From an uncultured Clostridia bacterium (GTDB taxonomy: Bacteria; Bacillota; Clostridia; Oscillospirales; Oscillospiraceae), in assembly GCA_946629065.1 (NCBI GenBank), contig CAMOXK010000014.1, positions 1 through 36,118 of the forward strand: a stretch of DNA of 36,118 bases, given 5' to 3'. The notes under the pieces were generated by a model. That model worked only from the letters and a program-made list of their open reading frames with translations. It had not been told where the DNA came from and did no database searches. Below, in pieces: positions 1 to 30,990 of this stretch. Position numbers and translations under genes: made by a program. Within the stretch, counting starts at the first letter, position 1, and each line of letters opens with the position of its first letter.

Positions 1-456
1 GCCCCTCCCATGGAGCTCTACATGAACCCCATCGATCTGGAGGCCGCCGACTTCATCGGCAATCCCCGCATCAATTTCCTGGCCGGCAAGGCGGAAAAGA
101 AGGACGGCAAGCTCTTTGTCAGGTGCGAGCTGGATTCCTATGTTTTCCCGGCAGAAGACTTCACCGGCGAGACCATCCCCGAGGGTGAATTCGACTGCGT
201 TGTGGCCATCCGTCCCGAGCAGGTCCAGATCTTCGAGGAACCCGGCGAAGATCGGATCCCCGTCACGGTCTACGCCAACCAGCCCGCCGGCTCCGAGACC
301 CTGATCTCTCTCAAAAAGGGAAGCAGCGATTTCCTTTCCAAGCAGATCGGCCTGGTCCACTATGATCTGGACCAGCAGGTCTATGTCTCCGTTGCGCCGG
401 AAAAGATCAACGTCTACAACGCCGAGACCACCCGCCTGATCAAGCGGGCCCACTGA
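1..456 (+). CDS. ABC transporter ATP-binding protein, C-terminal part (MalK/UgpC/FbpC type)
   Basis: The reading frame is open from the first base, so the gene starts upstream and only about 151 C-terminal residues are present. The nucleotide-binding domain is missing. What remains begins with a typical end-of-ATPase stretch (PPMELYMNP, then FIGNPRINFL) and continues into a TOBE-like regulatory domain (VAIRPEQVQI). This is the usual tail of cytoplasmic ATPases that power sugar, iron or organophosphate importers. It lies 76 bp ahead of a binding lipoprotein, so the two probably form one importer operon whose permease genes are outside the window. The substrate cannot be read from this fragment. 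High confidence for the family, low for the substrate. Confidence 0.9.
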   Translation, partial: APPMELYMNPIDLEAADFIGNPRINFLAGKAEKKDGKLFVRCELDSYVFPAEDFTGETIPEGEFDCVVAIRPEQVQIFEEPGEDRIPVTVYANQPAGSETLISLKKGSSDFLSKQIGLVHYDLDQQVYVSVAPEKINVYNAETTRLIKRAH

Positions 457-532: not shown

Positions 533-1873
533 ATGAACAGCAAACGGATCCTGGCCCTGCTGATGGCCCTGTGCATGGTCCTCAGCTTCGCCGCCTGCGG
601 CGAAAGCGCCGCCCCCGCCCAGCAGAGCGAAACCGCCAAGGAGGAGGCTCCCGCTGCGGAGGCTCCCGCCGCTGAAGCCCCTGCTGAAGAAGCCCCCGCC
701 GAGGAAGCCGCTCCCGCTGTGGAGGACTCCCAGTTCTTTGGCCCCATCTATGATGACTGGAGCAAGATGACCGACGAAGAGCTCTATGCTCTGGCCCAGG
801 AGGAAGTGAAGGACGGCAGCGCCATCAACATTTACGCCACTTCTTCCAAGATGCTCAAGGTGAAGGATAGCTTTGAGGAAGCCTTCCCTGGCCTCACCGT
901 GGACATCATGGACCTGGACAATGACGAAGTGCTGCAGAAGTGCCGCCTGGAAGCCAATTCCGGCAACGTCCAGGGCGACGTGCTGCAGGTGAAGGACGTC
1001 AACGGCGACGTGTTCTTCGGCGACTATGAGGACGGCATCATCTCCGCCTTCTACCCCGAAGACATCTGCGCCCACATTGACGAGGGCCTGCTCCGCTACG
1101 GCTATCCGCTCTACGCTTCCCAGTCCTTCTGGTTCTACAACACCGAAGCCTTCCCCGAGGGTCAGCCTGTTGACAGCTGGTGGCAGATCATTGAGAAGAA
1201 CGAGGACGGCAGCCAGAAGTACCGCATCTTCACCAAGGAGATCGGCTCCGAGACCGCTTACCTGTCCCTCTTCGCCAGCTTCATCGTGAACGCTGACCAG
1301 ATGGCCGCCAACTACAAGGAAGTCTACGGCGAGGATCTGGAGTACACCTATGACGCCAGCGCCTTCCCCAACATCCCCGCGGACAATGCCGGCATTGAGT
1401 ATCTGTGGCGCTTCAGCCAGATGAAGATCACCTTCATCGGCGACGGCGACGAGCTGGTGGAAGCTGTCCACAACTCCACTGCCGAGGATCCCGCGCTGGC
1501 TCTGGCCTCTGCCGGTAAGATCACCAACCGCGACGATTCCGGCTTCAACATCGGCTGGGTCGTGCTGAACCCCTACAATGGCCTGCAGAACCTGGAGTAC
1601 CTGTACGTTGTGAACAACTGCAAGCACCCTGCCGGCGCCCGTCTCTTCATCCGCTTTGTCACCGGCGGCGCTGACGGCGAAAGCGGCGGCTTCAAGCCCT
1701 TTGCCAAGGAAGGCAACTGGCCCGTCCGTGACGACATCAAGGACAAGAAGAACGAGATGACCCTGGCCGAGCTGAACGCGGCTGAGCCCGATCTTGCCTC
1801 CATCTACAACGTGTTCCTGGATGCTCAGGACCTGTGGATCTACTGGCTGGACCAGAACCCCAACATCGGCTGA
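533..1873 (+). CDS. ABC transporter substrate-binding lipoprotein
   Basis: A 446-residue extracellular solute-binding protein. A signal peptide (hydrophobic residues about 5-21) ends in the lipobox FAAC, so Cys22 should be lipidated and anchor the protein outside the membrane. Residues about 25-65 are a low-complexity Ala/Pro/Glu linker of repeated APAAEAPAEEA units. The folded domain starts near INIYATSSKMLKVKDSFEEA, resembling the iron/polyamine/phosphonate/hexose-phosphate group of binding proteins rather than classical maltose binders. A good AAAGGAG site precedes the ATG. It follows the ABC ATPase fragment and is closed by a terminator at 1889-1923. The ligand is unknown; a nearby set of HAD proteins makes a phosphorylated ligand possible, but that is inference. 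Confidence 0.88.
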   Translation: MNSKRILALLMALCMVLSFAACGESAAPAQQSETAKEEAPAAEAPAAEAPAEEAPAEEAAPAVEDSQFFGPIYDDWSKMTDEELYALAQEEVKDGSAINIYATSSKMLKVKDSFEEAFPGLTVDIMDLDNDEVLQKCRLEANSGNVQGDVLQVKDVNGDVFFGDYEDGIISAFYPEDICAHIDEGLLRYGYPLYASQSFWFYNTEAFPEGQPVDSWWQIIEKNEDGSQKYRIFTKEIGSETAYLSLFASFIVNADQMAANYKEVYGEDLEYTYDASAFPNIPADNAGIEYLWRFSQMKITFIGDGDELVEAVHNSTAEDPALALASAGKITNRDDSGFNIGWVVLNPYNGLQNLEYLYVVNNCKHPAGARLFIRFVTGGADGESGGFKPFAKEGNWPVRDDIKDKKNEMTLAELNAAEPDLASIYNVFLDAQDLWIYWLDQNPNIG

Positions 1874-2542: not shown

Positions 2543-3298
2543 ATGATCACTTCCGTGATGTTTGATATGGGCGGAACGCTGGAGGACGTCTTTGTAGACG
2601 AACAGTCCGAGCTTGCCGCCGTGGAAGAGCTGGACCGAATGCTGAAGGCCGGCGGGCTGGATCCCCGGGTGGATCTTGCGGAGCTGAAGCGCCGCGTAGA
2701 CGCCGGGTGGAAGCGCTACGGCGCCTTCCGGGACAGCTGCGACGTGGAGCTCAAACCCATTCCCATCTGGCGGGACTATGCTCTGGCAGACTTTGATTTT
2801 CCCCGGGAAATTCTGGAGCCCCTCTGCGAGCCTATCGCCCACATGTGGGAGCTGACCCATTACCACCGCAGCCTGCGTCCCCGGGTCCGGGAGATGCTGG
2901 AGGGACTGCGGGATCTGGGCCTGAAGCTTGGTGTCATCAGCAACACCGCCGCCATGTATCAGGTCTTTGACAGCCTGGAGGAATACGGCATTCGGGATCT
3001 GTTCCAGGATGTGACCCTCTCCTCTGTCACCGGCATGCGCAAGCCTCTGCCGGATATCTTTGAGGTCTCCACCCGCCAGCTTCGGGTAAAGCCCGAGAAC
3101 TGCGTCTACGTGGGAGACACCATCTCCCGGGACATCATTGGCTCCAAGCGCGCGGGCTTTGCCTGCTCCATCCAGATCTGCTCCAAGTTGACCCGGGAAA
3201 AGGACGCCGGGGTGAAGCGGGAGTTTGAGCCGGACTTCGTGGTGGAAAACATCTACGACGTCCTGCCTGTGGTGAAGGGCCTGCTGGAAGGCAACTGA
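2543..3298 (+). CDS. HAD-like hydrolase, DxG variant (paralogue 1)
   Basis: A 251-residue haloacid dehalogenase superfamily protein with a C1-type helical cap. Motif I is FDMGGTLED, with nucleophile Asp8; the usual second Asp (general acid/base) is Gly10. Motif II Ser133 (GVISN), motif III Lys167 (GMRKP) and motif IV Asp192/Asp197 (YVGDTISRD) are intact. The motif spacing is identical to the HAD gene at 5530, so the two are close paralogues. It has a clear GGGAGG site, lies 28 bp after the membrane protein gene and 81 bp before an MgtC-like gene. The likely substrate is a small phosphorylated metabolite, but loss of the general acid means phosphatase activity should not be assumed. Confidence 0.92.
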   Translation: MITSVMFDMGGTLEDVFVDEQSELAAVEELDRMLKAGGLDPRVDLAELKRRVDAGWKRYGAFRDSCDVELKPIPIWRDYALADFDFPREILEPLCEPIAHMWELTHYHRSLRPRVREMLEGLRDLGLKLGVISNTAAMYQVFDSLEEYGIRDLFQDVTLSSVTGMRKPLPDIFEVSTRQLRVKPENCVYVGDTISRDIIGSKRAGFACSIQICSKLTREKDAGVKREFEPDFVVENIYDVLPVVKGLLEGN

Positions 3299-3379: not shown

Positions 3380-4108
3380 ATGACGATGATACAATATCTG
3401 CACAGTCAGTTTGCTCCTGTGCAGATTCTGGACTTTGCTGGCAGACTGCTGCTGGCCTGCCTTTGCGGAGCTGCCATCGGCTATGAGCGGAGCAAGCGGT
3501 TCAAGGAGGCGGGCATCCGTACTCATATCATCGTATGCTGCGCGTCCGCGCTGTTCATGCTGGTATCAAAATACGGCCTTGCGGATATGGTCACGGCTGA
3601 CGGCGCGTTTTCTTTCGGGACCCATGGGACGGACCCGGCCCGTGTGGCGGCCCAGGTGGTCAGCGGCATCAGCTTCCTCTGCGCGGGTGTGATCTTCAAA
3701 AACGAGGGCCTGGTCAAGGGCCTGACCACAGCCGCCGGCCTTTGGTTCACGGCCGGGCTTGGCCTGGCAATAGGTTCGGGGATGATTTTTCTTGGCATCA
3801 TCGCCACCGTGCTGATCAGCGCCATCCAGTATTTCATGCACCGCTACGCCGTTGGGGCGGACGCCTATGCTGCCAACCGCATCCAATTCACCGTCAAAAG
3901 CGACACGGACTTTCATGAGGCCTTGCTGCGGCAGCTGGAGCAGTGGAACGCTCAGGTGGCGGAGAGCAAGATCGCCCGCCGCCGGGACGGCACCACGGAC
4001 TATGATCTCATCCTCCGCCGCCGCACCGAGATCAGCTATGGGGAACTCAAAGCCTTCATGGACTCCCGGTCTGAGATCCTCAGCGCCAGCAACAGCCCGA
4101 TTCGATAA
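3380..4108 (+). CDS. MgtC/SapB family membrane protein (paralogue 1)
   Basis: 242 residues. The N-terminal half holds the MgtC core: several membrane helices and the family signature IGYERSKRFKEAGIRTHIIV (about 34-53), with the conserved Arg/Glu positions. A soluble C-terminal domain (about 160-242) follows, ending SRSEILSASNSPIR. MgtC-like proteins are linked to magnesium limitation, phosphate homeostasis and membrane potential; the exact role here is unknown. A GGGAAGGG site precedes the ATG. It is closely related to the gene at 13349, including a 41-bp stretch of identical DNA (3638-3678 versus 13613-13653). A bidirectional terminator follows the stop codon. Confidence 0.93.
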   Translation: MTMIQYLHSQFAPVQILDFAGRLLLACLCGAAIGYERSKRFKEAGIRTHIIVCCASALFMLVSKYGLADMVTADGAFSFGTHGTDPARVAAQVVSGISFLCAGVIFKNEGLVKGLTTAAGLWFTAGLGLAIGSGMIFLGIIATVLISAIQYFMHRYAVGADAYAANRIQFTVKSDTDFHEALLRQLEQWNAQVAESKIARRRDGTTDYDLILRRRTEISYGELKAFMDSRSEILSASNSPIR

Positions 4109-4152: not shown

Positions 4153-5169
4153 TCACAGCCGCTTGCGGTAGGGGGCGCAGGAGGAGCGTTCCACCAGAGT
4201 GGGGGAGAGAATCCGGTGGGAGTAGCCCGCCTGCTCGTTCTGGATCTTGTCCAGCAAGGTATCCACCGCCACGGAAGCCAGCATCTTCTTGGGCTGCTCG
4301 ATGGTGGTGAGCTCGATGCGGGGCAATCCACTGTCCCGGATGTTGTCAAAGCCCAGCAGAGACAGATCCTCCGGGATGCGCAGGCCGATCTCCTCCGCCG
4401 CCTGCATGATGCCCAGGGCGTTGGTGTCGGTGGCGGCGAAGATGGCGGAGAAGCGCCGCTCCTGGGAGAAAAGCTGCTTTGCCAGCTGATAGCCGTATTT
4501 GATGGAGGAAGAGGAGAAGGTGTTGTTGCAGTAGCGGGGCGTCAGCCCAAAGCGCTCGCAGGCGGCGGCGTAGCCCTCTGCCCTGAGCTGATGGGTGGTG
4601 CTGGCCCGGCGGCGGCCAAAGTAGAGGATGTCCCGGTGGCCCAGCTTGTAGAGATACTCCATGCCCATCTGGGCGCCACGGAAATTATCCACAGAGACGT
4701 AACTCTCCGGCACCTCTCGCAGGTTCTCTCCGATAAAGACCGTGGGGATGCGGCTGAGGTAGGGGGAGAGCTTGTTGTAGCTCTCCATGCCGGAGGGGAT
4801 CAGCAGGACCCCGTCCACCTGCCGGCCGATCATCAGCTCGAAGAGCTCACGCTCCTGTTCCGGGTCCCGGGAGGAGTTGCAGAGGATGATGTTGTAGCCC
4901 CTGGCGCGGACCTGCCGGTCGATGTGGTAGGCCAGCTCCGCCATGAAGGGATTGTTCACACTGGTGAGGATCAGGCCCAGAAGCTTGGTGCTCTTCATGA
5001 CCATGGAGCGGGCCACGGTGTTGGCTGTATAATTCATGTCCTTGCAGATCTGCAGGATCCGCTCCCGGGTCTCCTGACTGATCTCGGGACTCCCCGTCAG
5101 GGCACGGGAGACGGTGGAATAGGAGACACCGGCGGCCTTGGCCACGTCTTTGATGGTAACATTCTTCAT
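4153..5169 (-). CDS. LacI-family transcriptional regulator
   Basis: 338 residues. The N-terminal helix-turn-helix is textbook LacI: VTIKDVAKAAGVSYSTVSRA at about 3-22, then the hinge region YTANTVARSM. The rest is a periplasmic-binding-protein-like sensor domain (LGLILTSVNNPFMAEL, VDGVLLIPSG, SVDNFRGAQMGMEYL, LLGFDNIRDSGLPRIELTTI). I start it at 5169, where GGGGGAACC precedes ATG, and not at an upstream ATG, because the HTH must be near the N-terminus. It is divergent from the HAD/phosphoglycerate mutase/PfkB operon and is the probable regulator of that operon and of itself. The effector is likely a sugar or related metabolite; which one cannot be told. Confidence 0.95.
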   Translation of the reverse strand: MKNVTIKDVAKAAGVSYSTVSRALTGSPEISQETRERILQICKDMNYTANTVARSMVMKSTKLLGLILTSVNNPFMAELAYHIDRQVRARGYNIILCNSSRDPEQERELFELMIGRQVDGVLLIPSGMESYNKLSPYLSRIPTVFIGENLREVPESYVSVDNFRGAQMGMEYLYKLGHRDILYFGRRRASTTHQLRAEGYAAACERFGLTPRYCNNTFSSSSIKYGYQLAKQLFSQERRFSAIFAATDTNALGIMQAAEEIGLRIPEDLSLLGFDNIRDSGLPRIELTTIEQPKKMLASVAVDTLLDKIQNEQAGYSHRILSPTLVERSSCAPYRKRL

Positions 5170-5529: not shown

Positions 5530-6273
5530 ATGATCAGAGCTGTGCTGTTTGACCTGGGCGGAACGCTGCACACGTCCTCTACCTCCCCGGAGAGAGACCT
5601 GTGGTTCTGCCGGCGTATCCTGGATCGGATGGGGGATTACGGCATCCATCTGGATGGCGGCGCAGAGCTGCTGGTAAGGCGCCTGCCTGTGAACAGCGAA
5701 ATCTACAAGCACGAATCGGAGCAGACCCTGCGGGAGCTGCCCGCGGCGGAGATCTGGAGCAAGTATTATCTCCGGGAATACGGCCTCACGGGGGAGCAGC
5801 TTGCGCCCTTTGCGGAGGAACTGAGTTTCCTGTATGACTATGAGCGCCCCCGCGTGATGCGCAGGCCCCACCTGATGGAGACGATGGTGGAACTCAAGGC
5901 CATGGGGATCCGCCTCGGTGTCATCAGCAACATCATTTCCCGTTCAGTGGTGCGTCACTTCCTGGCGGAATACGGCATCGAAGAGATGATGGACTGCGTC
6001 ATCACTTCTGCGGAGACCGGAATCCGCAAGCCCTCGCCGGAGATCTTCCGCATAGCGGAGGAGGCCATGGGCCTGAAGCCGGAGGAGCTTGCCTATGTTG
6101 GGGACACCATCTCCCGGGACGTGATCGGGACACGCAATGCCGGCTGGGCCATGATGATCCAGATCAGCAATCCCTCCATTGCCCACCGGGACGCGGGCCT
6201 GGAGAATGCCGGATGGGAGCCGGATTACCGCATCGAGGACCTGGCTGAGATCCCGGCGATCCTGAAACGATAA
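5530..6273 (+). CDS. HAD-like hydrolase, DxG variant (paralogue 2)
   Basis: 247 residues, first gene of the LacI-divergent operon, preceded by AAAGGAG. Motif I is FDLGGTLHT with Asp8 as nucleophile and Gly10 in place of the second Asp. Ser133 (GVISN), Lys167 (GIRKP) and Asp192/Asp197 (YVGDTISRD) occupy exactly the same numbers as in the HAD at 2543, so these two proteins are the closest pair of the five. The cap domain (about 18-110) carries the family's EIWxKY segment. It probably acts on a phosphorylated small molecule. It is 43 bp from the next HAD gene. Confidence 0.93.
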   Translation: MIRAVLFDLGGTLHTSSTSPERDLWFCRRILDRMGDYGIHLDGGAELLVRRLPVNSEIYKHESEQTLRELPAAEIWSKYYLREYGLTGEQLAPFAEELSFLYDYERPRVMRRPHLMETMVELKAMGIRLGVISNIISRSVVRHFLAEYGIEEMMDCVITSAETGIRKPSPEIFRIAEEAMGLKPEELAYVGDTISRDVIGTRNAGWAMMIQISNPSIAHRDAGLENAGWEPDYRIEDLAEIPAILKR

Positions 6274-6316: not shown

Positions 6317-7045
6317 ATGCAGAATCTGGATGCCATTTTCTTTGACGTTGGCGCAACGCTTCGCTATGTGGTGGAGGACAAGGAATTTGCCGCCGCCGCC
6401 GAGCGGGAGCTGATGGAACTGGTAGGCTCCACCGAAGAGCACGACGCTTTTTTTGAAAAGCTCAATAAAAACTGGAAGGCCTATCGCAAGTGGGCCAAGA
6501 CTGAACTTTTGGACGTGTCCGAGATGGAGCTATGGCTCCAGTATCTGCTGCCGGACTATCCTGCGGATAAGGTGGCGCCCAACGCCGCCCGTCTCACCCG
6601 GCTCTGGCGGGACCATGACGGACGCCGCGTGGTCCACGATGGCACCCTGGAGACCCTGCGGGAGCTGAAGCGCAGGGGCTATAAGCTGGGCATCATTGCC
6701 AATACCATCACCGAAACCGAGATCCCCGACTGGATGTGCCGGGACCATGTGGCGGACTGCTTCACCACCGTGATCCTCTCCTCCAAGGTGCGCCTGCGCA
6801 AGCCGGATCCGGCCATCTACCTGCTGGGTGCCCGCTGCATCGGCAGCGCCCCGGAAGCCTGCGCCTATGTGGGCGATAACCCGGTGCGTGACGTGGAAGG
6901 GGCCAAGGCCGCAAACTTCGGCGCCATGGTGCTCTTTGAGGACGCCGGCACCGCCGACCGGGAGGGCAAGGCCCCCACGGTGCTGCCGGACTATACCATC
7001 AAGTCCATCCCCGAGCTGCTGGACCTCTTCCCGCCCAGGACCTGA
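6317..7045 (+). CDS. HAD-like hydrolase, DxG variant (paralogue 3)
   Basis: 242 residues starting MQNLDAIFFD; I prefer this ATG to one 24 bp upstream because AAAGGAAGGA lies 6 nt before it. Motif I is FDVGATLRY (Asp10, with Gly replacing the second Asp). Motif II reads GIIAN, so the usual Ser/Thr is Ala128, a second departure from the HAD consensus. Lys162 (LRKPDP) and Asp187/Asp192 (YVGDNPVRD) are kept. The cap has the AYRKWA...MELWLQYLLP pattern shared with paralogues 4 and 5. It may bind rather than hydrolyse its ligand, or be a slow enzyme. Ten bp separate it from the next gene. Confidence 0.93.
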   Translation: MQNLDAIFFDVGATLRYVVEDKEFAAAAERELMELVGSTEEHDAFFEKLNKNWKAYRKWAKTELLDVSEMELWLQYLLPDYPADKVAPNAARLTRLWRDHDGRRVVHDGTLETLRELKRRGYKLGIIANTITETEIPDWMCRDHVADCFTTVILSSKVRLRKPDPAIYLLGARCIGSAPEACAYVGDNPVRDVEGAKAANFGAMVLFEDAGTADREGKAPTVLPDYTIKSIPELLDLFPPRT

Positions 7046-7055
7046 GGAGAGCGGC

Positions 7056-7787
7056 ATGAAAGAGATCAAAGGCGTATTCTTTGACCTGGGCGGCACCCTC
7101 CGCATTGCGGAGCAGGTGCCCGAGTACCAGGAGGCCGCCATGCGCCGTATGGCGGAGCTGGCAGGCTATGAGGACGCGCAGGGCTTCATCGACATGGTGG
7201 AGCAGCGCTACAAGCCCTACCGGGATTGGGCCCTGAGCGAGATGAAGGAGAGCAATGATTTCGAGCTCTGGCACAAGTGGCTGCTGCCGGAGATGGATGA
7301 GGAGAAGACCCGGGAGATCTGCCACGAAATGACCTATCAGTACCGCCAGTTCAAGGGCCTGCGCCATCTGGTGGAGGGCGGCCGGGAGGTCATCGAGACC
7401 CTGCATCAGCGGGGCTACAAGCTGGGCATCATCTCCAACCTTATCGGTGAGTATGAGATCTATGACTGGCTGAAGGCAGACGATCTGGAGCAGTACTTCG
7501 ACGCGGTGATCCTTTCTCCCGTCGTTGGCATCCGCAAGCCGGATCCCAGAATGTACTGGCTGGGCTGCGAGAAGCTGGGCCTGGAGGCAGGGGAGTGCGC
7601 CTCCGTTGCGGACAACCTGGACCGGGACATCACCGGCGCCATCGCGGCGGGCATCGGGGCCAACATCCTCTTCATCAGTCCCCAGAAGCTGGCGAAGAAG
7701 ACCATCACCGACGCGAACCGCCCCGATTACATCGTCCACCGTTTCCTGGACATTCTGGATCTGCCCATGCTGCAGGGAGGCAAATGA
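7056..7787 (+). CDS. HAD-like hydrolase, DxG variant (paralogue 4)
   Basis: 243 residues; the ATG at 7056 follows GAGGAGAG. Motif I is FFDLGGTLRI (Asp10, Gly12 instead of Asp). Motif II Ser127 (GIISN), motif III Lys161 (GIRKPDP) and motif IV Asp186/Asp191 are present, although the loop reads SVADNLDRD instead of the usual YVGDN. The cap segment PYRDWALSEM...FELWHKWLLP is shared with paralogues 3 and 5. The stop codon overlaps the start of the next HAD gene (TGATG), which implies translational coupling. Substrate unknown. Confidence 0.93.
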   Translation: MKEIKGVFFDLGGTLRIAEQVPEYQEAAMRRMAELAGYEDAQGFIDMVEQRYKPYRDWALSEMKESNDFELWHKWLLPEMDEEKTREICHEMTYQYRQFKGLRHLVEGGREVIETLHQRGYKLGIISNLIGEYEIYDWLKADDLEQYFDAVILSPVVGIRKPDPRMYWLGCEKLGLEAGECASVADNLDRDITGAIAAGIGANILFISPQKLAKKTITDANRPDYIVHRFLDILDLPMLQGGK

Positions 7788-8518
7788 TGGAACAGAACAT
7801 CAACACCATATTTGTAGACCTGGGGGACACCTTCCGGGTCATCCGCAAGGATCCGGCCTATGAGCTGGAGGCCAAGACCGTCATCACAAGGTGCCTGGGT
7901 ACCGATGAGGACCCCACGGAATTCTATCACCGGGTCATCGAGCCCCGCTACGACAAGTACCGGGAGTGGGCCCTGCATTTCTACTGCGAAGCGCCGGTGA
8001 AGGAACTCTGGACCCGCTGGCTTGCCTATGACTTCCCCCGGGAGCGGGTGGAGGCCGCGGCGGACGAGATGACCTATGCCTATCGCCGTACCAAGGGCGA
8101 GCGGGTGGTCACCGACGGCGGCGTCGAGACCGTGAAGGAGCTTTACGCCAGAGGCTACACCCTGGCCATCGTCAGCGACCTGGTGGGCACCCATGAGGTG
8201 GACGAGTGGCTGGATCGGGACGGGCTGCGGCCTTACTTCAAGAGCGTGCAGCAATCCTCTGTCTGCCTGATTCGCAAGCCCCATCCCGCCATTTACTATT
8301 ACGCCCTGGAAGAGTGCGGCGCGGACCCCAAGCGCACCTGCTACGTGGGCGACAACCTGAACCGGGACATCGTGGGCGCCAAAGCAGCGGGCCTCGGCAT
8401 GACGGTGGCGGTGCAGTACCCCAACAAGAAACCTCAGACCGTGACGGACGAGAACCGCCCCGACCGGTTCATCACCCATTTTTCACAGCTGCTGGATATC
8501 TTCCCGCCGCTGCGCTGA
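7787..8518 (+). CDS. HAD-like hydrolase, DxG variant (paralogue 5)
   Basis: 243 residues. Two adjacent ATG codons (7784 and 7787) are possible; the second has the better spacing (6 nt) from AGGGAGG. Motif I is FVDLGDTFRV: nucleophile Asp11, Gly at the second-Asp position, but an Asp one residue later (DLGD). Ser130 (IVSD), Lys164 (IRKPHP) and Asp189/Asp194 (YVGDNLNRD) are intact. The cap carries KYREWAL...KELWTRWLAYDFP. It overlaps the preceding HAD gene by 1 nt and ends 16 nt before the permuted phosphoglycerate mutase, so all are co-translated from one transcript. Confidence 0.93.
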   Translation: MEQNINTIFVDLGDTFRVIRKDPAYELEAKTVITRCLGTDEDPTEFYHRVIEPRYDKYREWALHFYCEAPVKELWTRWLAYDFPRERVEAAADEMTYAYRRTKGERVVTDGGVETVKELYARGYTLAIVSDLVGTHEVDEWLDRDGLRPYFKSVQQSSVCLIRKPHPAIYYYALEECGADPKRTCYVGDNLNRDIVGAKAAGLGMTVAVQYPNKKPQTVTDENRPDRFITHFSQLLDIFPPLR

Positions 8519-8534
8519 AGGAGGACAACACAGA

Positions 8535-10103
8535 ATGTTTGACAAGACCTTTCACGGGGGCGAGGCCCTGGCCAAGGCCGTAGAGCATGCCTATACCCAG
8601 GGCCAGACCGATTACTCCCTGGAGCCTATGGTCCTGGTGGACGAGAAGGGCGAACCCGTTGGGAAAATCAAAAACGGCGACCATGTGGTGTTTTGCTGCC
8701 GCCGGGGCGAGCGGGAGATCGAGCTGACCGAGGCTTTCACCGACAAGGACTTCCCCCATTTTGAGCGGGAGTACATGCCGGACCTGGACTTCGCCATTAT
8801 GACCATGTATCACGAGAAGTTCAAGAACCTGCCCATCGCCTTTGCCCCCGAGCGGGTGCAGAAGCCCCTGGCCCAGGTGTTGAGCGAGGCGGGACTGAAG
8901 CAGTTCCACTGCTCCGAGTCGGAGAAGTTTGCCCATGTGACCTTCTTCTTTAACGGCGGCTACAACCAGCCTTTCCCGGGTGAGACGGACCTCTGCATCC
9001 CGTCTCCCAAGGGCATTCCCTTCGATCAGCAGCCGGTGCTGAGCCTGCCCACCGTGGCGGAGAAGGTGCAGGGCGCTGTGGACGAGGGCTATGACTTCAT
9101 CGTGACGAACTTTGCCAACGGCGACGTCATCGGCCACACCGCCAACAAAGACGCTAAATTGGAGGCCGCCGCGGCGATTAGCCGTTATGTAAACCAGGTT
9201 GCCCACTACGCCAAGGACAAGGGCTATGTGGTGGCCGTTACGGCGGACCACGGCAACATTGAGGCCCTGTACACCAAGGAGGGCAAGCCCCATGTGGCCC
9301 ACACCACGAACCTGGTGCCCTTCCTGATCCTGGATCCCCAGGGCAGGGAAGTGACGCTGCGGGACGGCCGCCTGGGCGACGTGGCCCCCACCATCCTCTC
9401 GGTGCTGGGGCTGGAGCAGCCGGAGGAGATGACCGGCCATAGTCTAATCGAGACGCCGGACTTCCACAATGACAAGATGATGCTCATCATCCTGGACGGC
9501 TGGGGCTTCGGCACCCATGACGAGGGCGACGCCATCTACCTGGCCGAGACGCCTGAGTGGGACGCGATGCTGGCCAAGTACCCCGGCAGCAAGCTCCGCG
9601 CCTCCGGCGAGGACGTGGGCCTGAAAGCCGGGAAGGCCGGCAACTCCGAGGCCGGTCACAACAATCTGGGCGCCGGGCGGATCGTGGCCCAGGACGACGT
9701 GCGTATGGACCAGTCCATCCAGGACGGTTCCTTCAAGCGCAATCCCGTCTTCCTCCACGCCATCGAATCGGCGAAGCAGGAGGGCACGGCCCTGCATCTG
9801 CTCTCCTATCTCACGGAAAAGTCCAGCCACGGCTGCATTGACTATCCCCTGATGCTCACCGAGATGGCCGAGGGAGTGGAGCAGGTCTATCTGCACATCA
9901 TCTTCGACGGCCGAAGCACCGAGCCGGGCTCCGCGCCCGCCATGCTCCGGGCTCTGGATGAAAAGCTCGCTGCCATCGGCCGCGGCGTGATCGTGGACGG
10001 CGTGGGCCGGGGCGTTGCCCTGGACCGGGACAAGAACTATGCCAAGGTCAAGCGCGCCTACGACGCCATGACCATCGGCACAGGCGCCGCCTATCAGGCC
10101 TGA
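8535..10103 (+). CDS. Circularly permuted cofactor-independent phosphoglycerate mutase-like protein
   Basis: 522 residues, the usual length for cofactor-independent phosphoglycerate mutase (GpmI, alkaline phosphatase superfamily), but with its parts in swapped order. Residues 1-304 match the C-terminal half of GpmI: RxxR at Arg57/Arg60, SEK131FAHVTFFFNGG, NFANGDVIGH (Asp197, His201), TADHGN (Asp238, His239), AHTTN (His256), ending EMTGHSL. After a 10-residue linker, residues 315-522 match the GpmI N-terminus: LIILDGWG (Asp321), GNSEAGHNNLGAGR (Ser371, the phosphorylated Ser), FDGRSTEP, ALDRDK (497-500), ending AYDAMTIGTG. Metal ligands and the catalytic Ser are present. The canonical SDGGVHSH segment reads SYLTEKSSHG, so one substrate His is lost, and DGRD is DGRS. 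Activity is plausible; specificity may differ. AAGGAGG precedes the ATG. Confidence 0.9.
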   Translation: MFDKTFHGGEALAKAVEHAYTQGQTDYSLEPMVLVDEKGEPVGKIKNGDHVVFCCRRGEREIELTEAFTDKDFPHFEREYMPDLDFAIMTMYHEKFKNLPIAFAPERVQKPLAQVLSEAGLKQFHCSESEKFAHVTFFFNGGYNQPFPGETDLCIPSPKGIPFDQQPVLSLPTVAEKVQGAVDEGYDFIVTNFANGDVIGHTANKDAKLEAAAAISRYVNQVAHYAKDKGYVVAVTADHGNIEALYTKEGKPHVAHTTNLVPFLILDPQGREVTLRDGRLGDVAPTILSVLGLEQPEEMTGHSLIETPDFHNDKMMLIILDGWGFGTHDEGDAIYLAETPEWDAMLAKYPGSKLRASGEDVGLKAGKAGNSEAGHNNLGAGRIVAQDDVRMDQSIQDGSFKRNPVFLHAIESAKQEGTALHLLSYLTEKSSHGCIDYPLMLTEMAEGVEQVYLHIIFDGRSTEPGSAPAMLRALDEKLAAIGRGVIVDGVGRGVALDRDKNYAKVKRAYDAMTIGTGAAYQA

Positions 10104-10121
10104 GATTTCCCATACAAATTC

Positions 10122-10144
10122 CTCCCGCCCCATCGGGGCGGGAG
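10122..10144 (+). other. Strong hairpin between the mutase and PfkB genes
   Basis: CTCCCGCCCC (10122-10131) pairs perfectly with 10135-10144 around a 3-nt loop. No immediate T-run follows, so this is more likely a partial terminator or a transcript-stabilising stem inside the operon than a full stop. Confidence 0.55.
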
Positions 10145-10175
10145 AGAAGCATTTTATAAAGAGGAAACAAAAACG

Positions 10176-11057
10176 ATGAAAGAATACGATCTGATGATCC
10201 TGGGACCGGCCACACGGGATGTGAACATCGATTATACCGGCGCGGAAGACCGGAGCGCCGGCGGCGCTGTGACCTTCTGCACCCCGGCGGCCCGGGCCAT
10301 GGGAGCCAGTGTCTTCGCGGCGGTGAAGATCGCCCCGGAGGATCGGGACATCATGGATGTTTTCGACATGCCGGCGGAGGACAAGGCTCTGCTGCCCTCC
10401 AGGCGCACCACCCTCATGCGCAACGAGTACTTCACCCCGGATCGGGAACGCCGCCGCTCCGGCTGCGCCGCCCAGTCCGACCCCATCCTGCCGGGCGAGC
10501 TGCCGGAAATCTCCTGGAAGCTCTGCCATCTGGCTGGGCTGCTGTACGGGGACTTTCCGGAGGAGCTGCTGGAGGAGCTGCACAAGCGGGCGCAGCTCTC
10601 CGCCGACGCTCAGGGCTTCCTGCGGCATAACAAGGGCGGCAGCATGTCCCTCCACGACTGGGAAGAGAAGCTGCGCTTCCTGCCCTGGATGGACTTTTTC
10701 AAGACCGATGCCGCCGAGGCGGAGATGCTTACCGGCCTCTCTGACCGGGAGGCCGCGGCACGGCAGCTCTGCACCTGGGGTGCCAAAGAAGTGATGGTCT
10801 CCCACAACGCGGAAATGCTGGTCTGCGACGGGGAGCACATTGCCACCTGCCCGGTGAAGGCCCGGAACCTCTCCGGACGCACCGGAAGGGGAGACACCAC
10901 CTTCGGCTCCTATCTCGCCATGCGGATGACGGGACATGATATGGAAACCTCGCTGCTCTATGCCACCGCCTGCGTCTCCCTGAAGATGGAGACGCCGGGG
11001 GTGTTCAAGGGCAGTCTCAAAGACGTGGAGGAATATATTCAAAATTTCTATCGTTAA
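10176..11057 (+). CDS. PfkB-family carbohydrate/nucleoside kinase
   Basis: 293 residues. The N-terminal strand LMILGPATRDVNIDY and the diglycine SAGGAVTFCTPAARAMG match the PfkB fold. DFFKTDAAEAEMLTG is the usual (N/D)xxE-type segment, and TGRGDTTFGSYL near the C-terminus is the PfkB signature with catalytic base Asp240. It should transfer phosphate from ATP to a sugar, sugar alcohol, sugar acid or nucleoside; divergence in the N-terminal substrate lid prevents naming which. It lies 72 bp after the permuted mutase with GAGGAAA upstream, and is probably the last gene of the LacI-controlled operon. Confidence 0.92.
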   Translation: MKEYDLMILGPATRDVNIDYTGAEDRSAGGAVTFCTPAARAMGASVFAAVKIAPEDRDIMDVFDMPAEDKALLPSRRTTLMRNEYFTPDRERRRSGCAAQSDPILPGELPEISWKLCHLAGLLYGDFPEELLEELHKRAQLSADAQGFLRHNKGGSMSLHDWEEKLRFLPWMDFFKTDAAEAEMLTGLSDREAAARQLCTWGAKEVMVSHNAEMLVCDGEHIATCPVKARNLSGRTGRGDTTFGSYLAMRMTGHDMETSLLYATACVSLKMETPGVFKGSLKDVEEYIQNFYR

Positions 11058-11136: not shown

Positions 11137-13224
11137 ATGGAAAAGTACTTTATTCTCGGTTTTCTGGGTTCGATCCTGGCCCTGGGCTTTTCGGTGATCC
11201 AGCGGCGCAGGGTCCTGTCTGTTTCGGAAGGAAATGAGCGTATGCAGAAGATCGCGGCGGCCATCCGCTCCGGCGCCAACGCCTACCTGAAGCACCAGTA
11301 CACCACGGTGTTCAAGGTCTTCGGCATCGTGTTCGTGCTGCTGCTGATTCTTGCCTTTGCCTCCGGCGGCAGGATGCTCTCCCGGGTGACGCCCTTTGCC
11401 TTCCTCACCGGCGGCATCTTTTCCATGCTGGCCGGCTACATCGGCATGAAGATCGCCACCTCCGCCAATGCCCGTACTGCCAACGCCGCCAGCGAGAGCC
11501 TGAACAAGGGCCTGCGGGTGGCCTTCTCCTCCGGCAGTGTCATGGGCTTTTCCGTGGTGGGCCTGGGCATGCTGGATGTGACCATGTGGTTCTTTATCCT
11601 GCGCTATGCCCTGGGCATCACCGAGCCGGAGCAGATCGGCTCCATCATGGTCATGAACGGCATGGGCGCCAGCTTTATGGCCCTCTTCGCCCGTGTGGGC
11701 GGCGGCATCTATACCAAGGCCGCTGACGTGGGCGCGGACCTTGTCGGCAAGGTGGAAGCGGGCATCCCCGAGGATGACCCCCGCAACCCCGCCACCATCG
11801 CAGATAACGTGGGCGACAACGTGGGCGACGTGGCCGGCATGGGCGCGGACCTGTACGAGAGCTATGTGGGCTCGATCCTCGCCACCTTCTCTCTGGGTGC
11901 TATCGCGGGCTATGGTTTCCAGGGCATGCTGCTGCCGCTGCTGCTGGCAGTGGTGGGCATCCTCTGCTCCATCCTGGGCTCCTTCCTGATCCGCACCAAG
12001 GAGGACGCCAGCCAGGAGGATCTGCTGAAGAGCCTGCGTACCGGCACCTACTCCGCGGCCATCCTGGCCGCAGTTCTCGGCGCACCGCTGACTTACTTCC
12101 TGCTGCACAGCTGGGGCGTGTATATCGCCATCCTCTGCGGCCTGGTGGGCGGCTGCGTCATCGGCTATTTCACCGAGTACTACACCTCCGATACCTATAA
12201 GCCCACCCGAGAGCTGGCGGCCGAGAGCGAGACCGGCAGTGCCACCATCATCATCGGCGGCCTCTCCCTGGGCATGCGCTCCACCATGGTGTCCATCCTG
12301 GTGGTGGCCGCGGCGGTGCTGCTGAGCTTCTACTGTGCCGGCGGCGCCAGGTCCTTCAACATGGGCCTCTACGGCATCGGCATCGCCGGCGTGGGCATGC
12401 TCTCTACCCTGGGCATCACCCTGGCTACCGACGCCTACGGCCCCGTGGCCGATAACGCCGGCGGCATTGCCCAGATGGCGGAGCTGCCCGAGGAAGTCCG
12501 GGAGCGCACCGACGCCCTGGATTCTCTCGGCAACACCACCGCTGCCACCGGCAAGGGCTTTGCCATCGGCTCCGCCTCCCTCACGGCCCTGGCTTTGCTG
12601 GTGAGCTATGTGGACATCGTCCAGTCCAAGACCGAAGAGGTGCTGGACCTCTCCCTTACGAACCCTCTGATGCTGGTTGGCCTTTTCATCGGCACCATGC
12701 TCACCTTCCTCTTCACCTCTCTCACCATGAACGGTGTGGAGCGGGCGGCCCAGTCCATCGTGGTGGAGGTCCGCCGCCAGTTCAAGGAGATCAAGGGCAT
12801 CATGGACTACCAGGCGGACCCCGAGTACGCCAGATGCGTGGCCCTCTGCACCAAGGGCGCCCTGCATGAGATGATCGCCCCGGCGCTGATCGCCGTGGTC
12901 ATGCCCATTATCACCGGATTGATCCTGGGTCCTGTGGGCGTGGTCGGCATGCTGGGCGGCGTCTCCGTCTCCGGCTTTGCCATGGCGGTGTTCATGTCCA
13001 ACGCCGGAGGCGCCTGGGACAATGCCAAGAAGTACATCGAAGCAGGACACCATGGCGGCAAGGGCAGCGAGCAGCACAAGGCCGCCGTCGTAGGCGACAC
13101 TGTGGGAGATCCGCTGAAGGACACCTCCGGCCCCAGCCTGAACATCCTCATCAAGCTCTGCTCCACCGTCTCCATCGTCTTCTCCGGCCTGATCCTGGCC
13201 TTCAACCTGGTAGGCTTGCTTTAA
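11137..13224 (+). CDS. hppA: Membrane-bound ion-pumping pyrophosphatase, potassium-dependent type
   Basis: 695 residues with about 16 hydrophobic segments, the expected size for the V-type pyrophosphatase. It couples hydrolysis of pyrophosphate to export of H+ or Na+ across the cytoplasmic membrane. The pyrophosphate/Mg site is clear: [19 protein letters not shown], then [20 protein letters not shown] (about 197-245), and near the C-terminus [14 protein letters not shown] and [23 protein letters not shown] (Ala469, where potassium-independent enzymes have Lys) indicates the potassium-dependent subfamily, many members of which pump Na+. GGAGGGAG precedes the ATG. The enzyme would recover energy from pyrophosphate made by biosynthesis in a fermenting cell. 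Confidence 0.97.
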
Positions 13225-13293: not shown

Positions 13294-13348
13294 AGCATAA
13301 AATCCTACCACGGAAGAACAGAAAAGTTGTTGGAAAGGACAGAACGTG

Positions 13349-14083
13349 ATGAAAGAGACTTTGATCGCGTATATGAACTGCCAGTTCCCGCTGATACAGG
13401 TGCTGGACTTCTGCGGAAGGCTGCTGCTGGCTTGCGTGCTGGGAGCGGTGATCGGCCTGGAGCGCAGCAAGCGATTCAAAGAGGCCGGTATCCGCACCCA
13501 CATCATTGTCTGCTGCGGCGCGGCCCTCATGATGCTCGTCTCCAAATACGGCTTCGCGGATATGATCGCGGCCGATGGTGCGGAGCTCTACGGCACGCAT
13601 GGCACCGATCCCGCCCGTGTGGCGGCCCAGGTGGTCAGCGGCATCAGCTTCCTGGGCGCCGGTGTTATCTTCAAAAACGGAGCCTCCATCAAGGGCCTGA
13701 CGACTGCTGCCGTGCTTTGGTTTACAGCCGGTGTGGGCCTAGGCGTGGGAGCCGGGATGATTTGGGTCTCGATCGTCGCTACCATGTTCGTGTTCCTCGT
13801 GCAGATCCTGCTGCACCGTTATGCTGTGGGCGCGGACGCCTATTCCGGCAACCGCCTGCAGTTCACGGTGAAAAACGGCCATGACTTCAATGCCGCTCTC
13901 ACCGAGCAGCTGGAGAAGTGGGGAGCTCAGATCACCGACAGCAAGGTGAACCGCCGGCGGGACGGCACCACCGAGTATGAGCTCACCATCCGCCGCCGCA
14001 CCGAGATCAGCTATGACGAGATGAAGAGCTTCATGGAGTCCCGACCGGAGATCCTCAGCGCCAGCAACAGCCCCATGCGCTAA
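13349..14083 (+). CDS. MgtC/SapB family membrane protein (paralogue 2)
   Basis: 244 residues; I use the ATG at 13349 (GGAAAGGA 9 nt upstream), while a GTG directly before it is also possible. The MgtC signature IGLERSKRFKEAGIRTHIIV is followed by helices and a soluble C-terminal domain with RRRDGTTEYELTIRRRTEISY, ending SRPEILSASNSPMR. By eye it is roughly two-thirds identical to the protein at 3380. It has its own promoter and direct-repeat control region, unlike paralogue 1, and a strong bidirectional terminator. Likely role: adaptation to magnesium or phosphate status; nothing in the window proves which. Confidence 0.93.
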   Translation: MKETLIAYMNCQFPLIQVLDFCGRLLLACVLGAVIGLERSKRFKEAGIRTHIIVCCGAALMMLVSKYGFADMIAADGAELYGTHGTDPARVAAQVVSGISFLGAGVIFKNGASIKGLTTAAVLWFTAGVGLGVGAGMIWVSIVATMFVFLVQILLHRYAVGADAYSGNRLQFTVKNGHDFNAALTEQLEKWGAQITDSKVNRRRDGTTEYELTIRRRTEISYDEMKSFMESRPEILSASNSPMR

Positions 14084-29179: not shown

Positions 29180-29235
29180 TCTTTTGTTGAGCATTTTTCA
29201 TGATTCTATCATGCGATCGGAAAGGAGATCTGGAT

Positions 29236-30063
29236 TTGGACTGCGATCTGAAAGCCATCAGCAGGGACATCCGCTGCGACACCCTGGCGGCCATCGGCCA
29301 CCTGGGAGTAGGCCACCTGGGCGGCTCCCTCTCCCTGGCGGAGCTATTGGCGGTACTGTATTTCAAGGAAATGCACATCGACCCGAAAAACCCAAAAATG
29401 CCCGGACGAGACCGGCTCATCTGCTCCAAGGGCCACGCAGGCCCTGCGATCTACGCGGCGCTGGCAAACCGGGGCTACTTCGAGAAGGAGCTGCTCATGA
29501 CCCTGAACCAGGGCGGTACCCGGCTCCCCAGCCACTGCGACAGCAATCTCACCGTAGGCATCGACATGACCACCGGCTCCCTGGGCCAGGGCTTCAGCTG
29601 CGCTGTTGGCGCGGCATTGGGTTCCAAGCTGGAGGAGGACGGCGCCACCATCTACACCATCATCGGCGACGGGGAGACCCAGGAGGGCCAGATCTGGGAG
29701 GCGGCCATGTTTGCCGCCGCCAAGAAGCTGGACAATCTCATCGCCTTTACCGACCGCAACAAGCTTCAGCTGGACGGACCGGTCTCCCAGGTCAACGACA
29801 TCTCCCCTCTGGCGGAGAAGTGGGCCGCCTTCGGCTGGAATGTCATCGATGTTGAGGACGGCAACGACGTGGACCAGGTGGAGGCCGCCGTGGCTCACGC
29901 CAAGCTGGGCCGGGACAGCGAAAGACCCACCATGGTCATCCTGAACACCCGCAAGGGCTGCGGCGTTCCCTGGATCGAAGAACTGGGTGCCGCCAACCAC
30001 AACACCAATATCACCGAGGAGCAGGCCCTTGCGGCCATCGCGGCGATCCGGGGGGAGGGCTGA
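29236..30063 (+). CDS. Transketolase, N-terminal (thiamine diphosphate-binding) subunit
   Basis: 275 residues starting at TTG 29236, 8 nt after AAAGGAG; upstream ATG/TTG codons in frame lack a site and precede the family N-terminus. It carries the PP domain of a two-gene transketolase: GVGHLGGSLSLAELLAVLYF, CSKGHAGPAIYAAL, TTGSLGQGFSCAVGAALG and the ThDP/Mg motif GDGETQEG (144-151) with Asn175. It pairs with the next gene, 3 bp away, to form the full enzyme, which moves two-carbon units between ketoses and aldoses. Split transketolases are often pathway-specific rather than housekeeping, which fits this cluster. Confidence 0.95.
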   Translation: MDCDLKAISRDIRCDTLAAIGHLGVGHLGGSLSLAELLAVLYFKEMHIDPKNPKMPGRDRLICSKGHAGPAIYAALANRGYFEKELLMTLNQGGTRLPSHCDSNLTVGIDMTTGSLGQGFSCAVGAALGSKLEEDGATIYTIIGDGETQEGQIWEAAMFAAAKKLDNLIAFTDRNKLQLDGPVSQVNDISPLAEKWAAFGWNVIDVEDGNDVDQVEAAVAHAKLGRDSERPTMVILNTRKGCGVPWIEELGAANHNTNITEEQALAAIAAIRGEG

Positions 30064-30066
30064 GAC

Positions 30067-30990
30067 ATGGAAATGAGAGCGGTTTATGCCGAATGCCTGG
30101 CTCAGCTCATGGAGCAGGACAGGCATGTGGTGGTGCTGGACGCGGACCTTGCCCGGGCCAGCGGCACCCTGAAGCTTTATGAGCGCTTCCCCCGGCAGAT
30201 GTTTGACTGCGGCATTGCCGAGCAGAACATGGCCTCCATTGCGGCGGGCCTCTCCAGCTACGGCTTCAAGCCCTGGATCGAGAGCTTTGCCCCCTTTGCC
30301 ACCCGGCGCATCTGCGACCAGATCGCCATCTCCATCTGCTACGCCAAACAGAACGTGAAGATCGTGGGCACGGACCCCGGCATCTCCGCCGAACTCAACG
30401 GCGGCACCCACATGAGTATGGAGGACATGGGCGTTGTCCGCTCCATCCCCGGCATGGTGATCTATGAGCCGGTGGACGAGCGGCAGCTGCGCGCCGCCAT
30501 GCCGGTGCTGAACGCCTACGTGGGACCGGTTTACATCCGCCTTTTCCGCAAGGCCCAGCCGGACGTGTTCCCGGAGGGCTACAAGTTCGACCTCTTCAAG
30601 GCCAATCTTCTGCGGGAGGGCAAAGACCTGAGCATCTTTGTCACCGGCATGATGACGAAGGACTGCCTGGACGCAGCCCGGATCCTGTTGGAAAAGGGCA
30701 TCGACGCCGAGATCATCAACGTGCACACCATCAAGCCCGTGGACCGGGAAACGGTGCTGGCTTCCGCCCGAAAGACCGGGGCGGTGCTCACCGTGGAAAA
30801 CCACAACGTCATCGGCGGACTGCACTCCGCCATTCTGGAGACCCTGGCCCGGGAGAAGATTCCCGCCATGGCCGTGGGCGTCCAGGATCGCTTCGGCGAA
30901 GTGGGCAAGCTCCCGTACCTCCGCGAGGCGGTGGGCCTCACGGTGGAGAACATCGTTGCCACCGCTGAGGAAGCAATAAAGCTGAAATAA
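30067..30990 (+). CDS. Transketolase, C-terminal (pyrimidine-binding) subunit
   Basis: 307 residues. DCGIAEQNMASIAAGLSSYG contains the catalytic Glu52 that activates thiamine diphosphate, and ESFAPFATRRICDQI and NGGTHMSMEDMGVVRSIPGM follow as in Pyr domains. The last third is the transketolase C-terminal domain (DLSIFVTGMMTKDCLDAARI, VLTVENHNVIGGLHSAILET). It overlaps in operon logic with the N-terminal subunit (gap 3 bp). The subunit boundary is the standard one, so this is a natural split and not a frameshift. An array of palindromes follows before the next gene. Confidence 0.95.
   Translation: MEMRAVYAECLAQLMEQDRHVVVLDADLARASGTLKLYERFPRQMFDCGIAEQNMASIAAGLSSYGFKPWIESFAPFATRRICDQIAISICYAKQNVKIVGTDPGISAELNGGTHMSMEDMGVVRSIPGMVIYEPVDERQLRAAMPVLNAYVGPVYIRLFRKAQPDVFPEGYKFDLFKANLLREGKDLSIFVTGMMTKDCLDAARILLEKGIDAEIINVHTIKPVDRETVLASARKTGAVLTVENHNVIGGLHSAILETLAREKIPAMAVGVQDRFGEVGKLPYLREAVGLTVENIVATAEEAIKLK

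Follow-up and report, generated by a model that had tools for sequence, protein, structure and literature searches.

A gene in a 36,118-nucleotide stretch of DNA from an uncultured Clostridia bacterium (hereafter, the window) encodes a real circular permutation of the cofactor-independent phosphoglycerate mutase (iPGM, GpmI) fold, in which the two halves of the canonical protein (TIGR01307; PDB 1ejj, 1o98) appear in swapped order. The permuted protein is a member of an old, widespread family rather than a lone oddity. No description of a permuted iPGM was found among the titles and abstract openings of the open-licence literature searched, where the papers found included ones on PGM3 and glutathione synthetase; the permutation is undescribed in that literature, in line with the original prediction. 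Human PGM3 is a phosphomutase with a natural circular permutation too, but it is an unrelated alpha-phosphohexomutase in which the permutation lies within one domain and affects only about 60 residues (PMC5570346).

The permuted gene is a single ORF in one frame, with an AGGAGG site (Table 1). Its 522-amino acid product matches TIGR01307 with 473.8 bits (cut-off 330.65) in two stretches, so that homology spans both domains, and the strongest of these stretches pairs protein residues 10-305 with profile positions 211-504. Both Pfam domains of iPGM, PF01676 and PF06415, are found, each split into two stretches. In the alignment with PDB 1ejj, residues 15-305 correspond to 219-509 of the chain and residues 315-521 to 6-214, which places the new termini between residues 214 and 219 of 1ejj, in support of the new ends named in the original prediction. 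The two halves also align separately with the canonical GpmI of the same genome, residues 14-306 with 218-505 (41% identity, 209 bits) and residues 314-517 with 5-210 (41% identity, 156 bits), compared with a top score of 26.6 bits among 200 shuffles, and this bears out the predicted order of the C-terminal and N-terminal halves within one frame. The canonical phosphatase-transferase-phosphatase order of domains is absent from the profile, 1ejj and own-GpmI alignments alike. In an ordinary iPGM, the transferase domain is inserted in the phosphatase domain; by these domain boundaries, both termini of the permuted chain fall within the transferase domain, leaving the phosphatase domain as one unbroken segment in the middle. 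Archaeal-type iPGM (apgM, TIGR00306) belongs to the same metalloenzyme superfamily and is matched only weakly (28.8 bits against a cut-off of 320).

Table 1. Features of the window around the permuted gene.
Feature	Coordinates	Strand	Basis and remarks
ABC transporter ATPase, UgpC-like, 3' part, open at window edge	1..456	+	family search
ABC transporter solute-binding protein (SBP_bac_1)	533..1873	+	family search
HAD-family hydrolase E, motif I DMGGT	2543..3298	+	family search, paralogue comparison
MgtC-family membrane protein	3380..4108	+	family search
LacI-family regulator, divergent from HAD genes	4153..5169	-	scanned as 4156-5154; start chosen by reading
HAD-family hydrolase A, motif I DLGGT	5530..6273	+	family search, paralogue comparison
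HAD-family hydrolase B, DVGAT	6317..7045	+	family search (scanned from 6293), paralogue comparison
HAD-family hydrolase C, DLGGT	7056..7787	+	29-39% identity with the other four HADs
HAD-family hydrolase D, DLGDT	7784..8518	+	scanned from 7595; ends 16 nt upstream of permuted gene
Permuted iPGM homologue, 522 aa	8535..10103	+	GpmI C-terminal part residues 14-306, linker, N-terminal part residues 314-517
Linker joining former C and N termini, residues 306-314	9450..9476	+	alignment ends; sequence variable among relatives
Predicted nucleophile Ser371 (1ejj Ser62)	9645..9647	+	alignment and conservation; role presumed
Ser461, standing for iPGM Asp154	9915..9917	+	alignments
PfkB-family kinase close to TM0415, RTGRGD motif	10176..11057	+	structure-relative search, alignment
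Membrane ion-translocating pyrophosphatase	11137..13224	+	family search
Second MgtC-like protein	13346..14083	+	shares blastp cluster with 3380-4108

Structure modelling had been proposed as a check of the permutation, and AlphaFold2, with 41 permuted sequences as input, produced a confident model (mean pLDDT 90.2, pTM 0.82) that is consistent with the iPGM fold: the Foldseek search of the PDB yielded 22 matches at E<=0.001, all 22 of them iPGMs. The best matches, 1o99 and 1ejj, cover 296 columns with a TM score of about 0.47, a value that reflects partial coverage because Foldseek aligns in sequence order, so that the permutation limits the match length.

The assembly of the window genome is fragmented (203 contigs, 67% complete), which could favor the view that the permuted order is an artefact of assembly or gene calling, a doubt that the original prediction itself had raised. 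The genome-contig scan does not bear this out: the permuted order is identical in all 80 loci kept from it (the best 80 of 102 relatives), including that of the strain Oscillibacter valericigenes An860 (L099), and is found in deeper relatives too. An artefact is, accordingly, extremely improbable and was rejected. In 78 of the 80 loci, one ORF covers both parts; L084 has two ORFs in unchanged order, and in L090 the ORF ends at residue 441. The carriers are metagenome-assembled genomes (MAGs) of Oscillospiraceae, Lachnospiraceae, Ruminococcaceae and unclassified Clostridia or Bacillota, along with two Christensenella, two Chloroflexi MAGs and the above strain; the proteins of L035 and L037 are the same in sequence. 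In the sample of 200 genomes of the family, full-length permuted matches occur in four, each from a different genus (the window genome, G014, G029 and G155), with 69-79% identity between the window protein and the other three; three of these four genomes recur in the scan (L004 = L061, L005 = L055, L006 = L099). Among the matches listed, full-length permuted proteins come from 2 of 301 Chloroflexota genomes (G588, G618) and, at E<=1e-120, from 2 of 391 genomes of the class sample; in the phylum sample, the listed matches give permuted proteins in 12 of 398 genomes at E<=1e-95 (G1172 to residue 436 only). The window genome is among the carriers in both the class and the phylum samples. A viral or plasmid origin was considered and rejected: no relative was confirmed in the viral contigs scanned, and among phages and plasmids (22 and 44 records, respectively) every match is below 60% identity, the five listed for each being two-piece and hence, by inference, canonical in order.

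All sampled permuted sequences form one clade. With the permuted rows rearranged to the canonical order, the tree splits 23 permuted from 22 canonical sequences (bootstrap 100, SH-aLRT 98); the canonical rows took in L222 alone of six further canonical loci, and the permuted rows comprise 14 sequences of the window's group (group A), five of group B, three of group C and L146, a long branch of unsure placement. In an earlier tree of 94 rows, 27 permuted rows grouped with SH-aLRT of 96. On reading the sequences, the break point appears identical across all groups. The permutation thus has one apparent origin that seems to be old and common to many bacteria; we infer a single event in a paralogue released from its glycolytic role, such as a tandem duplication with subsequent trimming.

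The permuted proteins share with GpmI the fold, the two-metal site, the nucleophilic serine and most of the substrate arginines together with a lysine. The metal ligands are retained as originally claimed: D321, S371, D197, H201, D238, H239 and H256 are invariant in all 82 full-length permuted proteins (78 distinct), among 166 positions that are invariant across the 82 sequences. The equivalents of H123, R153, R185, R191, R261, R264 and K336 are retained in all 27 permuted rows compared. The claim that the RxxR and DRDK substrate residues are all kept holds for the former, which is R57-G-E-R60, and fails for the lysine of the latter (K500), which is variable (G in 45 and K in 30 of the 82 proteins). 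The permuted class differs from GpmI in Asp154, a residue that we take to contact the glycerate hydroxyl: it is D in all 67 canonical rows and is replaced by S (26) or G (1) in all 27 permuted rows. The other class-marking changes include G121S, V122S and F260R, the last of which introduces an extra arginine, R56, in 22 of 23 permuted rows, and the GGVHS segment of iPGM becomes (K)SSHG. The alterations noted originally in the SDGGVHSH and DGRD segments are therefore real and characteristic of the clade, with the DGRD change being the loss of Asp154, and this loss supports altered substrate handling. The two metals and Ser371 would still take the phosphate from the substrate, and with Asp154 replaced and Arg56 added, the alcohol site would be less acidic and could fit a substrate that is more phosphorylated than phosphoglycerate.

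The permuted enzyme is probably something other than the glycolytic mutase because the window genome has a separate canonical gpmI (contig C33) and none of the aligned permuted rows retains Asp154; given that gpmI, the possibility that the permuted gene is the sole phosphoglycerate mutase is unsupported for this genome. A canonical-order gpmI is matched also in the other three permuted-gene genomes of the family sample, and canonical GpmI is likewise encoded by 14 of the 20 permuted-gene genomes in one set (with a fragmented, stop-interrupted match in G606) and by 8 of the 12 in a second set; apgM is present in 4 of 12 permuted-gene genomes searched, namely, the window genome (G000), G589, G604 and G618. 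A second true phosphoglycerate mutase, with the ordinary 3PG/2PG activity, that serves next to the canonical enzyme or replaces it altogether in some genomes, would be compatible with the TIGR01307 score above the curated cut-off, with the retained arginines, lysine and H123, and with the lack of canonical GpmI in eight genomes that carry the permuted gene (G596, G597, G598, G600, G607, G955, G1028 and G1279), of which the first five also lack apgM. Nevertheless, this alternative is unlikely given the replacement of Asp154, the canonical GpmI of the window genome and many others, the apgM of G589 and G618 and the conserved, non-glycolytic neighbors, which are indicative of a chemistry of inositol phosphates and pyrophosphate; the function of phosphoglycerate mutase in the original prediction, accordingly, is not upheld. 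Three permuted-gene genomes (loci L125, L126, L127) have, as the only canonical form found, a highly divergent, long-branch iPGM of canonical order.

The neighborhood of the group A genes was analyzed in 81 loci (84 before L004, L005 and L006 were dropped as the repeats identified above). A HAD hydrolase gene is directly upstream of the permuted gene in 74 of the 77 loci with enough sequence, and among the 54 loci with more than 6 kb upstream, a LacI regulator is present in 53, and four or five HAD-cluster ORFs in 43. The five HAD paralogues of the window are 25-39% identical to one another; motif I reads D-x-G-x-T in 299 of the 317 ORFs of the HAD cluster, without the usual second Asp, which was found in none of 255 ORFs by a second, Asp-allowing pattern. 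The PfkB kinase is present in 24 of the 25 loci with more than 9 kb on either side (the exception is L080) and lies immediately downstream of the permuted gene in 26 of 70, and 30 of the 81 loci contain the membrane pyrophosphatase. IolG is encoded directly downstream in 5 of the 81 (L092, L093, L094, L108, L112), and the proteins scanned at two of these five both exceed the TIGR04380 cut-off. In the Chloroflexi locus L111 (3014-5424), the permuted gene is followed by a PRK/uridine kinase-like protein and apgM. Elsewhere in the window (29200-30990), two adjacent ORFs resemble split transketolase halves.

The wealth of HAD hydrolases, together with the LacI regulator, the ABC importer and MgtC, would suit a phosphate-scavenging cluster in which the permuted protein is a broad or unrelated sugar-phosphate phosphatase, with inositol as one of several substrates. 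This is a rather improbable reading, given that the 166 invariant positions suggest a defined substrate. The best explanation, tentative and with a little less than an even chance of being right, is that the permuted protein is an iPGM paralogue freed from glycolysis which, in group A, uses iPGM chemistry as an inositol-phosphate phosphatase or mutase. This assignment is a guess by gene association: the neighbors of the permuted gene include a TM0415-like kinase, frequently an ion-translocating pyrophosphatase and, in five loci, IolG. The substrate would likely be an inositol mono- or bisphosphate, imported or made via the neighboring ABC transporter and HAD hydrolases, from which the enzyme would remove a phosphate or shift it to a neighboring hydroxyl, working alongside a putative PPi-dependent inositol kinase and the ion-pumping pyrophosphatase.

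The closest solved relative of the PfkB kinase is TM0415 (PDB 5ysp), which is described as a PPi-dependent myo-inositol kinase with the donor residues K171, F221, R229, R232 and M266 and the inositol contacts D11, N78, Q141 and R145 (PMC5931981). Judging by the alignment, the neighboring kinase keeps four of the five PPi-signature residues and all four inositol contacts, each of them in 61 of the 63 members of the kinase cluster, and the RxGRGD motif and the K171 equivalent are present in it. The position of F221 is occupied by V in 37 members and I in 24 (gap in 2), which counts against the inositol reading. In the family sample, kinases 71-73% identical to that of the window (whose own genome gives 100%) occur in exactly those 4 of the 200 genomes that have the permuted gene, in G014 on a different contig. 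The window genome and G155 also encode second, 49% identical TM0415-like paralogues; the paralogue of the window genome (L187, about 9558-10430) is about 1 kb away from a region (about 11548-12291) that weakly matches glycerophosphodiester phosphodiesterase. Distant TM0415-like kinases (30-33%) are found in G008 and G176, both lacking the permuted gene, which is another point against the inositol reading.

Genome-wide, IolG scores above the cut-off in 13 of the 24 permuted-gene genomes examined (26 before G590 was merged with G155 and G603 with G029) versus 2 of the 200 family genomes, two sets that differ in taxonomy. In the family sample, a sub-cut-off match is seen in one of the four permuted-gene genomes, against IolG matches in 4 of the 196 others; genome-wide presence was therefore dropped as a marker in favor of adjacency. 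The search for IolG came up empty in the window genome, in G014 and G029 (98 and 97% complete, respectively) or in seven others, and the negative result in the first three is a further argument against the inositol reading. For Dysosmobacter welbionis, the route from myo-inositol to butyrate is reported to be incompletely characterized (PMC12482443).

A common neighbor for the entire permuted clade was sought and not found. Four group B loci (L210, L211, L213, L215) comprise, by reading, a GntR-type gene, a cyclic 2,3-diphosphoglycerate (cDPG) synthetase-like gene, three genes for an ABC transporter and the permuted gene itself. The family searches covered representatives (the L213 GntR and the L211 binding protein and synthetase), and the L211 synthetase matches cDPG synthetase structures at about 1e-133. 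The group C genes adjoin rapZ (L212 and L216) or a phosphohexomutase (L212 and L217), with L212 scanned and the rest judged by reading. Around the L146 gene, 16 kb show, on reading, no neighbors of the group A, B or C kind, and IolG of that genome (G618) is on another contig. Because the neighbors in group B, group C and L146 differ, it is improbable that one substrate serves the entire clade, and the substrate may differ between groups.

The group B context suggests a general phosphatase or mutase of vicinal bisphosphates, such as 2,3-bisphosphoglycerate, that would act on glycerate bisphosphate in group B and on inositol phosphates in group A. Here, the GntR-synthetase-importer-permuted gene arrangement of the four loci is complemented by the distribution of the synthetase, which 6 of the 7 group B genomes searched carry and none of the 28 others, and the charge shift at the alcohol site, with Asp154 lost and Arg56 gained, fits as well. 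The differing neighbors of group C and L146 speak against it, and we consider this generalization a serious contender that is, nonetheless, somewhat unlikely. A cDPG synthetase link was rejected for group A, none being found in the group A genomes searched. The synthetases themselves, at L211:3364-4704, at L213:3416-4753 and in four more group B genomes, are located in Bacillota clusters together with an ABC importer and the permuted gene; the cDPG solute is said to occur only in hyperthermophilic methanogens (PMC10690619).

A more specific version of the inositol-phosphate assignment, and a highly unlikely one, is a phosphomutase that feeds the PPi kinase running in reverse, so that energy would be gained from phytate phosphate. 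The enzyme would move a phosphate on inositol, for instance, from the 2-position, to the position used by the kinase, which would convert inositol phosphate and Pi to inositol and pyrophosphate, and the membrane pyrophosphatase would then turn the pyrophosphate into an ion gradient. Common phytases typically leave the phosphate at the 2-position. In the open-licence literature searched, none of four phrases for an inositol phosphate mutase was found.

All three permuted proteins that were scanned exceed the cut-off of TIGR01307, an equivalog model for phosphoglycerate mutase, and genomes may therefore be credited with the wrong function. A permutation of a whole protein that swaps which domain is inserted in which, and that has been preserved throughout a deep clade of bacteria, amounts to a natural experiment on folding and on closure around the substrate. 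If the inositol link is true, the gene cluster would be a lead to inositol-phosphate use by Oscillospiraceae in the guts of humans and livestock.
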